Made by a program: the position numbers and the translations under genes | NCBI GenBank assembly: GCA_001299455.1 | Contig: CYUK01000003.1 | Span: 1,116,001-1,180,000, forward strand | Direction: 5' to 3' | Source of the DNA: Clostridiales bacterium SIT11 | GTDB lineage: Bacteria > Bacillota > Clostridia > Tissierellales > Peptoniphilaceae | DNA length: 64,000 nt | The notes under the pieces: generated by a model | Databases searched by the model: none | Told to the model about the DNA's origin: nothing | Seen by the model: the letters and a program-made list of their open reading frames with translations, nothing else | Shown here: one piece after another, positions 9,298-38,928 of the stretch | Numbering within the stretch: position 1 is the first letter of the stretch | How the letters are laid out: every line of letters begins with the position of its first letter

Positions 9298-9326
9298 ATG
9301 CCAACTTTATTGATTAAGAAAGAAAA

Positions 9327-9366
9327 AGAAAGTAGACTCAAGATATTTGAATCTACTTTCTTTTTT
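9327..9366. terminator. Bidirectional terminator between convergent genes
   Basis: Stem GAAAGTAGA...TCTACTTTC with T runs on both sides; serves the ClC gene on the plus strand and the APC permease operon on the minus strand. Confidence 0.8.
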
Positions 9367-9420: not shown

Positions 9421-10776
9421 TTAATCAATCGGGGTATTATCTGGATTGACGATTTCAATAGGCCAGTTTTCTGGGTCTGATTTTTGTTTGCTCTTTACTA
9501 AAAGCCATAATAAAAGACCTGCAGCAAAATACCCCACAAGTGTAATCCAAGATCCTTTATCCATAGCCAGAACAGCAGATACAAGAACCCAGATACAGAA
9601 GAATGTAGCGACAACAGCTACGAACTTATCATTTTTAACTTTAAAAGGACGTTCCCATTCTGGATGGAGTTTGCGTAGGCGGACGAAGCTTACGACAACT
9701 AGGAAGTAAACAACGCCGGCAGCAATTCCATAGATGGCATAGATATAATTTAACCAAGTTTCTGGTGCGAATATTGTAAAATAAGCACAGGCAAAGAAAA
9801 CTAAAATATTTGCATTACTTGGTTGACCATGTTTATTTAACTTTCCAAACCATTGGGGAACTTGGTATTGTCTGGCAGCGCCAAATAATGTTCTGGAAGC
9901 GGCTAGATAAAAACCTGAAAGAGTGGTAATACAAGCTCCTAAACCAGCGATAACAATAATTAAAGCAAGCCAATGCTTTCCTATGAGGTCAGCAACTCTA
10001 GGGTCAACAACATCTACTTGTGTAACCCATTCTGAAGATACAATTCCACCGATACCAATAACAGCTAAAACATATACTAGTAAAGTGACACCCAGGGAAG
10101 CAATAAATGCTAAAATCAGCTTGTTCCGTGGCATATTGGATTCTTCAGAAAGTTGAGGAATTAAGTCAAAACCAATAAATTTCATAATTAAAAGTCCAAC
10201 AGCAGCTGAATAACCTTCTACACCCTTTGGAAATAAGGGTAAAAGAGTGTCCAGTGACCAGTTATGACTTGTTAAGAAAGTAATGGAAGCGAAGATAGAA
10301 CATACTAGCATAATCCAAAATAATAAATTTTGTAGTTTGGCTAATACTTTGATTTCAAAGTTAGATAATATATACCAGATGATTAAAATAATAGCGGCTA
10401 CAATCTTTGTTTGGATGAATGTAATGGGATATAGGTAACTTAACATTGTCGCAATACCGTAAGTAACGGTGGGTACACCCATTACATAGAGTAGCATGAC
10501 AAACCAGAAAGAAAACCATCCGATATCCCAGTTTACAGAGTTTGAGATCCAAACATTTTCACCACCGGCATAAGGCAACATAGCTGTCATTTCACCATAA
10601 ATGAAACAAAGTGAAAGGACTAATATCGCACATGTGATAAGGGAAATTGCGGATCCGGGACCACTTAAATCAAACCATAATTTGATTTCTACCATCCAGC
10701 CACCGATCATACCACCAGCAGCCATGGCTACGATTTGTGAAAATCCTAATTCTTTTTTTAAACCGTTGTTACTCAT
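9421..10776 (-). CDS. APC-superfamily amino-acid permease
   Basis: A 451-residue protein with about twelve hydrophobic segments. The N-terminal segment has GFSQIVAMAAGGMIGG, the substrate-binding glycine motif of APC transporters. Substrate is probably an amino acid or amine. Ribosome site TTTAGGAGGCAATT precedes ATG 10776. It is second gene of an operon with the isochorismatase-fold hydrolase (16 bp apart), so the permease may import the hydrolase's substrate or the pair may handle one compound. The operon lies next to an apparent invertible promoter. Codon use is more A/T-ending than in the neighbouring ClC and P-ATPase genes. Confidence 0.88.
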   Translation of the reverse strand: MSNNGLKKELGFSQIVAMAAGGMIGGWMVEIKLWFDLSGPGSAISLITCAILVLSLCFIYGEMTAMLPYAGGENVWISNSVNWDIGWFSFWFVMLLYVMGVPTVTYGIATMLSYLYPITFIQTKIVAAIILIIWYILSNFEIKVLAKLQNLLFWIMLVCSIFASITFLTSHNWSLDTLLPLFPKGVEGYSAAVGLLIMKFIGFDLIPQLSEESNMPRNKLILAFIASLGVTLLVYVLAVIGIGGIVSSEWVTQVDVVDPRVADLIGKHWLALIIVIAGLGACITTLSGFYLAASRTLFGAARQYQVPQWFGKLNKHGQPSNANILVFFACAYFTIFAPETWLNYIYAIYGIAAGVVYFLVVVSFVRLRKLHPEWERPFKVKNDKFVAVVATFFCIWVLVSAVLAMDKGSWITLVGYFAAGLLLWLLVKSKQKSDPENWPIEIVNPDNTPID

Positions 10777-10792
10777 AATTGCCTCCTAAACA

Positions 10793-11491
10793 CTACTTAG
10801 CCTTGGATAGCAAATCTAAAGTATCTTCTGTACTTAATACATAAGTATAGATGACATTCATTATTTTCAATTCGGCTTCATGTAATTCTTGGGATGCAGC
10901 TACACAAGCATCGTGAACAGTAATAACTTGGTATCCAGCATCAGCTAGTCCACGAACAGTAGATGCAACACATTGGTCTGTAACCATACCACAAACAACA
11001 ACTGTTTCAATGTCCATATTATCTAGTAGATGGAGATAGTTAGTACCTGTGGTAACGCTATCTGTAGTCTTATAAACTACAATTTCATCTTTAATAGGTT
11101 CCAAGGGGCTAATGACTTCAGCTGCATAGGAATTGACAGGCATAAGCATATTGTTCCAGCCTTCTGATTTTTGTACAGGAGAGCGGTCAATGCCGTCTGA
11201 ACGTTGGCAGGCGATTAATCCGTAGCTAACAATTAAATTATTTTCGCGGAAATAATCTAATATTTTTTTGGTATTAGGCAAAGCTACATTATGCATCCGA
11301 TCAAAGTAAGGTTTCCAAGAGTCCCAAAGACCGGCGTCTTTAAATTCTTTTGCTTCTCCCATATCTAGCTTACAAAATTCATTTTGAAAGTCGATAATGA
11401 GTAATATAGTTTTATCTAGATTGATATCTAAATCTGGAAACTCATCCACGTGATCATAGTAAATTGAAACAAAATTACGATCTAACTTCAC
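10793..11491 (-). CDS. Isochorismatase-fold cysteine hydrolase
   Basis: About 232 residues. The catalytic triad of the family is visible: D in LLIIDFQNEF, K in EIVVYKTTDS, and the nucleophile C in GMVTDQCVASTVRGLADAG, which is preceded by the usual cis-peptide VTD. Members hydrolyse nicotinamide, ureido or N-carbamoyl compounds, or isochorismate; substrate is not predictable here. Start: an upstream in-frame ATG at 11509 lies before the ribosome site AAGGAGG, so GTG at 11491, 6 nt after it, is the better start. First gene of the operon with the APC permease. Confidence 0.85.
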   Translation of the reverse strand: MKLDRNFVSIYYDHVDEFPDLDINLDKTILLIIDFQNEFCKLDMGEAKEFKDAGLWDSWKPYFDRMHNVALPNTKKILDYFRENNLIVSYGLIACQRSDGIDRSPVQKSEGWNNMLMPVNSYAAEVISPLEPIKDEIVVYKTTDSVTTGTNYLHLLDNMDIETVVVCGMVTDQCVASTVRGLADAGYQVITVHDACVAASQELHEAELKIMNVIYTYVLSTEDTLDLLSKAK

Positions 11492-11541: not shown

Positions 11542-11567
11542 GTAAAGAAAAGCAGACTTTAATTTAC
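11542..11567. repeat. Left 26-bp recombination site (inverted copy)
   Basis: The site is a quasi-palindrome: half-site GTAAAGAAAAGC, central AG, half-site ACTTTAATTTAC. The left half matches the reverse complement of the right half (GTAAATTAAAGT) at 9 of 12 positions. The 12-2-12 layout is that of serine-invertase crossover sites such as hix and gix. The second copy at 11680-11705 is in opposite orientation. Over the two sites 22 of 26 bases agree. Confidence 0.75.
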
Positions 11568-11572
11568 TAGTG

Positions 11573-11581
11573 TGATATAAT
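11573..11581 (+). promoter_or_regulatory. Extended -10 promoter inside the invertible segment
   Basis: TGATATAAT fits the extended -10 consensus TGnTATAAT exactly. The -35 position (11553-11558) falls inside the left recombination site, and because the site is repeated at the other end, the same -35 sequence apart from one base would be present after inversion. Confidence 0.55.
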
Positions 11582-11584
11582 TCA

Positions 11585-11604
11585 TTATGAAAATATTTTC
11601 ATAA
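11585..11604. promoter_or_regulatory. 20-bp perfect palindrome, probable operator
   Basis: TTATGAAAATATTTTCATAA is a perfect inverted repeat lying 3 bp downstream of the -10 inside the invertible segment, i.e. over the expected start of transcription. It moves with the promoter on inversion, so a repressor bound here would act in either orientation. Confidence 0.5.
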
Positions 11605-11679
11605 CTTTAGTAGGCTGTTTAAGGAGGAAAAGTAAAATAAATAGGGCTGATGAGTTCATGTCGACAACTCTTATATTAT

Positions 11680-11705
11680 GTAAATTAAAGTCTACTTAAT
11701 TTTAC
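11680..11705. repeat. Right 26-bp recombination site (inverted copy)
   Basis: Read on the minus strand: GTAAAATTAAGT, central AG, ACTTTAATTTAC. The half-sites agree at 10 of 12 positions as an inverted repeat. Inner 14 bases are identical to the left site. It ends 6 bp before the recombinase stop codon. Confidence 0.75.
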
Positions 11706-11711
11706 AAAATT

Positions 11712-12314
11712 TCACTTAACTTTTTCCTGGCACTCCTTAATCCAATTGGAAAAGGTCGTATGGCTGACATTAAGTTGCTGAGCACCTTGGCGGAGGGAAA
11801 TGTCCCCATCTAAATAGCGGAGATAAATTGCATGAAAGTTGGCGGGTTTTTTGTATTTCGGTCGGCCAAATTTTGTTCCCTTCACTTTGGCAATACGTAT
11901 TCCTTCCTTTTGTCGCTGTTTAATATTCTCCCGCTCTATTTGGGCAACATAGGATAGGACTTGAAGGAACAAATTAGATATAAAGCGTCCGGTTAAAGTT
12001 CCATCTTCCCTACTTGTATCTAGCAAGGGACAGTCAAGGACAGTAATATGAACCAGAAGAGTTTCTGTTAAGTAGGTCCATTCCTTGATAATTTCTTCAT
12101 AATTTCTCCCTAGACGATCAATGGACTTTATAAAGACCTGGTCGTCTTTTTTTAAGGTTTTCACAAGACGCTGATAATTCGGTCGTTTGAAATCTTTACC
12201 AGAGCATTTGTCGATAAAAATTTTGTCTAAAGGGGAGTCCAATTGATTAAAGGCCTCTATTTGACGATTAATATTTTGGTACTTCGTGGACACACGGATA
12301 TAGCCGTAATTCAT
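11712..12314 (-). CDS. Serine recombinase, DNA-invertase/resolvase family
   Basis: A 200-residue protein. The resolvase catalytic domain holds the nucleophile S9 in YIRVSTKYQN, further the DQVFIKSIDRLGRN motif with its arginines (~66-72), and the long E-helix region around SYVAQIERENIKQRQKEGI. A short C-terminal helix-turn-helix (SLRQGAQQLNVSHTTFSNW, ~172-190) binds DNA, as in Hin and Gin. Its length is that of invertases, not of the large integrases. The paired inverted sites directly behind the gene fit a local inversion switch. No TnpB-like partner is present, which argues against IS607. Confidence 0.88.
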   Translation of the reverse strand: MNYGYIRVSTKYQNINRQIEAFNQLDSPLDKIFIDKCSGKDFKRPNYQRLVKTLKKDDQVFIKSIDRLGRNYEEIIKEWTYLTETLLVHITVLDCPLLDTSREDGTLTGRFISNLFLQVLSYVAQIERENIKQRQKEGIRIAKVKGTKFGRPKYKKPANFHAIYLRYLDGDISLRQGAQQLNVSHTTFSNWIKECQEKVK

Positions 12315-38898: not shown

Positions 38899-38928
38899 AA
38901 AAGCCCAGGAATATTCCTGGGCTTTTTT
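38899..38928. terminator. Bidirectional terminator
   Basis: Perfect palindrome built on AAGCCCAGG / CCTGGGCTT with T runs both ways; ends the membrane-protein gene on the minus strand as well. Confidence 0.85.

Follow-up and report, generated by a model that had tools for sequence, protein, structure and literature searches.

The window analysed here, a 64,000-nucleotide stretch of contig CYUK01000003.1 of Clostridiales bacterium SIT11, contains a gene for a small serine recombinase, followed by two inverted 26-bp sites with a predicted promoter between them and, beyond these, by genes for an isochorismatase-fold hydrolase and an APC-superfamily amino acid permease (Table 1). A sequence-only reading of this DNA had described the sites and the recombinase gene, and these observations are correct: the recombinase open reading frame ends next to one site, the two sites are identical in 22 of 26 positions in opposite orientation, with an AG core in each and 136 bp between the cores, and each site is a 12-2-12 quasi-palindrome, with 9/12 and 10/12 matches in the halves. 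The 22/26 level was not reached in any of 1500 Markov shuffles of the surrounding 560 bp (shuffle maximum, 21), and no second inverted pair at this level, with a gap of 40-450 bp, was found across the 64-kb window, where two registers of one pair were recovered. The segment-facing 12-bp half-sites are identical in all 12 positions, and the outer halves differ; the proximal site contains the exact GTAGACTTTA, and the distal site has GCAGACTTTA, with one change.

Table 1 Features of the locus, in window coordinates
Feature	Position	Strand	Details
Intrinsic terminator-like hairpin, likely operon end	9323-9365	-	located 3' of permease
APC-superfamily amino acid permease, target gene 2	9421-10776	-	451 aa, PF13520; 16 bp after hydrolase
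Isochorismatase-fold hydrolase, target gene 1	10793-11491	-	232 aa from GTG 11491; Pfam PF00857
Distal (operon-side) recombination site	11542-11567	+	26 bp, GTAAAGAAAAGCAGACTTTAATTTAC; core AG 11554-11555; 22/26 inverted match, fits site model
Predicted promoter, pointing away from operon	11553-11581	+	-35 CAGACT 11553-11558 in site core, 17 bp, extended -10 TG-A-TATAAT 11573-11581
Putative invertible segment between core dinucleotides	11556-11691	.	136 bp; from site geometry
Perfect 20-bp palindrome	11585-11604	.	TTATGAAAATATTTTCATAA; spans predicted transcription start; 1/5000 shuffles has one as long
Proximal (recombinase-side) recombination site	11680-11705	-	26 bp, GTAAAATTAAGTAGACTTTAATTTAC; core AG (CT 11692-11693 on +)
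Small serine recombinase	11712-12314	-	200 aa, Pfam Resolvase; ends 6 bp from proximal site

Besides the two window sites, no copy of the site pattern with up to 2 mismatches was found in the genome of this organism, which argues for local rather than global control; a genome-wide set of sites was rejected on the same count. At 3 mismatches, there are two further genomic copies, against one for a control pattern. Elsewhere in the window (38899-38926), AAAAGCCCAGGAATATTCCTGGGCTTTT forms a perfect palindrome of 28 bp that probably terminates transcription in both directions.

At E 0.001, the 1.76-Mb, three-contig genome contains no match other than this recombinase. Residues S9, R44, D66, R67, and R70, which we take to be catalytic, are invariant across 47 aligned recombinase proteins. 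In a ranking of PDB sequences, which is not a tree, the recombinase scores 90.8 bits against Sin/Bin3 and 67.1 against gamma-delta, versus 54-55 for the two chains named DNA-invertase, presumably Gin; on these scores, a plain Hin-type assignment was rejected. Among the NCBIfam models, the best is Mpi (NF009949), at 63.6 bits, far below the cut-off of 272. Thus, of the comparison with Hin/Gin/Cin drawn in the sequence-only reading, the inverted 26-bp 12-2-12 sites stand and the recombinase, closer in sequence to Sin/Bin3 than to the solved DNA-invertases, does not.

The hydrolase probably starts at GTG 11491, preceded by the Shine-Dalgarno sequence AAGGAGG (11504-11498), and not at ATG 11509, because five relatives begin at the same residue; this start lies 50 bp beyond the distal site. 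The upstream regions of the hydrolase genes in five relatives contain no recombinase, and four of these five have a fixed -10 box (TATGTTATAAT or TATGTTATACT). Across 14 other hydrolase loci, there is no recombinase match near the hydrolase and no site-like match within the 1.5-kb flanks (the upstream flank of L049 is shorter), with two stray site-like matches farther out, in L062 and L066; a relative of the permease adjoins the hydrolase in seven. Capture of the same operon by the cassette elsewhere was accordingly rejected. With no recombinase near the hydrolase in these 14 relatives, it seems that a common, ordinary hydrolase/permease operon has acquired a switch in the window, through placement of the cassette in front of it. 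The hairpin at the likely operon end is not significant by itself (3 terminator-like sites found vs 2.6 expected from shuffles). Its stem holds AAAGTAGA, which resembles the site core, probably by chance.

The extended -10 element of the predicted promoter, TGATATAAT at 11573-11581 on the plus strand, is separated by 17 bp from a -35 box that lies within the distal site. With a hand-set sigma-A matrix, the combination scores 8.7, against 10.1 for the 95% shuffle maximum, and is not significant alone; a simple promoter scan did not list it. By consensus, the putative promoter is weak, and the case for it comes from conservation across relatives. Its present direction, away from the hydrolase and permease genes (OFF), is supported by the sequence, as first proposed. 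Inversion would turn the promoter toward the operon and would change the -35 box from CAGACT to TAGACT, because the base before the core belongs to the outer half-site. The 20-bp palindrome behind the -10 box is a possible operator that would move together with the promoter when the segment inverts. In the other 14 loci with an AG core, the 40 bp behind the -10 box contain no perfect palindrome of more than 10 bp, and a regulon of the window palindrome was rejected (the central 16 bp, with 2 mismatches allowed, occur at 8 places in the genome vs 5 for a control). An orphan Shine-Dalgarno-like AAGGAGG (11621-11627), with no start codon close behind, lies inside the invertible leader; it might stabilise the mRNA or be a relic.

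We searched for relatives of the recombinase in named genomes and in samples of the family, order, class, and phylum; later additions came from records of phages and plasmids and from one further family. The first set comprises 110 recombinase loci including the window, reduced to 107 by removal of L091 and L145 (no ORF match) and L141 (duplicate); of the 107, three (L095, L097, L151) have flanks too short to score. An inverted pair had been seen in the first scans at L002, with a protein containing surface Ig-like domains downstream. The module, in which the recombinase stop codon is followed by a site, usually 70-180 bp of intervening sequence, and an inverted site, is present in 43 of the 107 recombinase 3' flanks, window included, and each of these 43 pairs scores above all 1070 shuffles under a site model derived from 15 seed sites, among them both window sites, that come from 8 of the 43 loci. 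The same line is exceeded by five of the nine later loci L165-L173 (L165, L166, L167, L168, L171). The other 64 of the 107 flanks, including the three short ones, show no pair above the threshold, which counts against the switch reading. Among viral contigs, the search turned up two distant recombinase relatives and no others.

The general site consensus is approximately nnnnCAAAAAGT-NN-ACTTTTTGnnnn, and the core dinucleotides of the relatives are AG, AT, GT, or AC, with TT and TC once each. The nearest recombinase relative has the same core in 32 of 47 cases (four of the 47 cores assigned by eye), compared with a mean of 11.9 and a maximum of 26 under label shuffles; because the core follows recombinase relatedness, each site pair is tied to the neighbouring recombinase. 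The inner half-sites are more alike than the outer ones in 30 pairs, versus 4 with the opposite bias and 8 equal (42 of the 43 pairs; L117 was dropped), an asymmetry that is perhaps partly due to the site model. All-against-all alignment gave no convincing case of a segment inverted from one relative to another. The six top-scoring pairs share one orientation, and the lower-scoring pairs whose alignment improves on reversal (L082/L148, L120/L099, L146/L147, L146/L134, and some others) are too weak to count.

The arrangement varies within the family. In several relatives that lack a downstream pair, one site with the same consensus precedes the recombinase gene and starts about 56-184 bp from it (L136, L114, L144, L113, L032, L083, and L035 are among the upstream single-site loci), and it seems, from the site positions, that one recombinase family holds both resolvases and switches. 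Site-like sequences also flank the recombinase gene in L099 and its 3' end in L130, where the gene itself or its tail, respectively, might be invertible. Similar uncharacterised proteins of the RFGKL/RFGRL..CRCDCG type, grouped by eye, follow the recombinase in L036 (G109), L068, and L166 and are perhaps a mobile passenger.

The position of the promoter relative to the sites also recurs. In each of the 12 loci with a [TC]AGAC core among the 43, window included, exactly one site is followed inward, at 17 or 18 bp, by a -10-like hexamer, whereas such a hexamer at 16-18 bp occurs in 5 of the 31 loci with other cores (Fisher 4e-7, with a -10 threshold of 4 and an AG grouping both chosen after the data were seen, and with one of the 5, L109, at the borderline); the partner site of G069 was corrected by eye before promoter scoring. 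Over all 86 sites, good -10 hexamers cluster at spacings of 17 bp (8 cases) and 18 bp (3 cases), with 0 or 1 at any other spacing. The three [TC]AGAC pairs found later (L165, L167, L168) all have a -10 box at the expected spacing. The layout is less clean in L165 and L167, which contain three [TC]AGAC-type sites each and extra weak promoter matches (in the ON direction in L165), so that promoter arrangements beyond the usual two may occur there. A -10 box at 17-18 bp is absent in G043 and L089, each of which has a single clear [TC]AGAC site that lacks a good partner. Of the 15 AG-core loci, 13 have the promoter directed at the recombinase (OFF) and two have it directed at the target (ON): L003 and L168, the latter located on an Enterococcus faecalis plasmid. 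With OFF in 13 of 15 assembled genomes, many copies could be locked.

Invertible-promoter switches are known mainly for surface proteins, and the sequence-only reading had called a metabolic target unusual. This holds for the 8 of the 14 other AG-core targets that were scanned against Pfam (L102, L100, L067, L008, G109, and L165 lie outside the scan): none matches a metabolic family, and six are surface-like. Four of the six, in L002, G101, G069, and L167, have surface or pilus-like domains; in L003 and L168, such domains lie in the second gene, behind an uncharacterised first gene in L003 and one annotated as an Rrf2 regulator in L168. No such domains were found in the targets of L004 and L084. 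G043, with its one clear site, precedes a pilin-like protein; an MBOAT acyltransferase lies downstream in L094, which belongs to another core group, and the remaining targets of such groups, inspected by eye, look varied. Inversion targets other than surface proteins do exist, as described for pdcB/pdcC in the relevant part of a C. difficile study (PMC11868660).

Taken together, these features very probably represent a self-contained phase switch, in which the adjacent recombinase inverts a promoter segment before the hydrolase/permease operon and would so turn these genes on or off at random. The first interpretation is partly upheld: for a promoter inverted by the serine recombinase next to it speak the modules of the relatives and a published system of the same repeat core, found in two orientations (the portion of PMC2654543 devoted to it), and the likeness to Hin/Gin/Cin does not carry over. 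The window displays the OFF orientation alone, in the one assembled genome of the species; flipping in this organism and the dependence of the operon on it are what we infer. The recombinase would bind both 26-bp sites, cut at the AG core, and invert the 136 bp between them; because the AG core is asymmetric and the repeats are inverted, the productive outcome is expected to be inversion and not deletion. The segment would carry a single promoter -10 box, 17 bp inside one site, and the core of each site would provide a -35 box, [TC]AGACT, so that a promoter would form at whichever site the -10 box adjoins. With the -10 box at the operon-side site, transcription would run toward the 3' end of the recombinase gene, in antisense, and leave the operon OFF; with the box at the recombinase-side site, transcription would proceed via the leader into the hydrolase and permease genes, the ON state, in which the predicted -35 box TAGACT is slightly nearer the consensus than CAGACT.

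A joint reading, which we offer tentatively, as possible rather than probable, is that the crossover core doubles as the -35 box, so that recombinase and RNA polymerase compete for it and the state of the switch is coupled to its flipping rate, and that this cassette was captured by a catabolic and uptake operon for nutrient bet-hedging. If the competition is real, an active promoter would shield its own site. The locus would add to Bacillota a recurrent, self-contained cassette of recombinase plus promoter, here before a metabolic operon; placing the -35 box in the crossover site is a simple, testable design that would link gene switching to transcription, and the cassette could serve as a compact genetic switch.

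Several other explanations overlap with one another, and the odds assigned to them need not total one. The cassette might be a decayed or locked one, a former switch that no longer flips; the operon would then be silent for good, or transcribed solely by read-through from the recombinase gene. Such a state would fit the single orientation in the window, the prevalence of OFF among the relatives (13/15), and the outer half-sites that differ more than the inner ones, but we regard it as unlikely given that the recombinase ORF is open with all invariant residues kept, the inner half-sites are identical at 12/12 positions, the -10 box is intact, and the frames of the hydrolase and the permease are open. 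Alternatively, the promoter might serve chiefly to restrain the recombinase by antisense transcription, with control of the hydrolase operon as a side effect; its direction in 13 of the 15 AG-core loci, into the 3' end of the recombinase gene, agrees with such a role. We hold this role to be very improbable: the 50 bp between the distal site and the hydrolase start include a good ribosome-binding site but are too short for a full promoter of the operon's own, and, in the SZO08550/SZO08560 system of S. zooepidemicus, forward RNA is direction-dependent and 44-fold above reverse according to the section of PMC2654543 on this locus.

Slighter still is the chance that the recombinase is a resolvase with its binding sites, engaged in dimer or cointegrate resolution, the two sites being res-like parts and not inversion substrates. 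The closest solved proteins, Sin/Bin3, would agree with this, as would the adjacency of one relative (L173) to transposase genes. A single upstream site is the usual layout of resolvases, and several pairless relatives have it, at the distances given above. The sites of the window, however, are located downstream of the gene, inverted, with a non-palindromic core, around a promoter before a target gene. Moreover, the published system with the same repeat core does invert, as far as its description in PMC2654543 goes.

In print, we found the cassette only for one streptococcal surface protein, and an earlier description of the class may exist; a site core forming the -35 box appears to be a newly found detail of this class. 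Hin, Gin, and Cin are serine recombinases by chemistry and act on inverted 26-bp 12-2-12 sites; the window has such sites flanking its segment, but its recombinase, judged against PDB sequences, is nearer to Sin/Bin3. With the Sin/Bin3 resolvases, the window shares the closest solved sequences and, in some relatives, single upstream sites of the same consensus; unlike these resolvases, with their upstream res site, it has two inverted downstream sites around a promoter. Mpi of Bacteroides fragilis, a global invertase of capsule promoters, is likewise a small serine recombinase that inverts promoters and is the best NCBIfam match, but the score falls far short of the model's cut-off and the control predicted for the window is local, not global.

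Among the literature matches listed for the repeat letters are PMC2654543 and a fungal paper, PMC4978913. The former, Holden et al. 2009, describes, in the section on this locus, an invertible promoter of the neighbouring S. zooepidemicus genes SZO08550, for a recombinase, and SZO08560, for an LPXTG surface protein; the promoter is bordered by GTAGACTTTA and TAAAGTCTAC, with a segment of about 115 bp between the repeats, and sequencing reads occur in both orientations, five of them in reverse. By repeats and layout, this is the nearest known system that we found, as far as that section describes it. Both loci have the inverted GTAGACTTTA/TAAAGTCTAC repeat core around a promoter (in the window, exact in the proximal site and with one change in the distal site) and an adjacent recombinase, and in both the promoter reads either the target or the reverse strand of the recombinase gene, in the window as predicted from the sequence. 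Unlike the surface-protein target of the streptococcal system, the target in the window, as assigned by Pfam, is a hydrolase and an amino acid permease.
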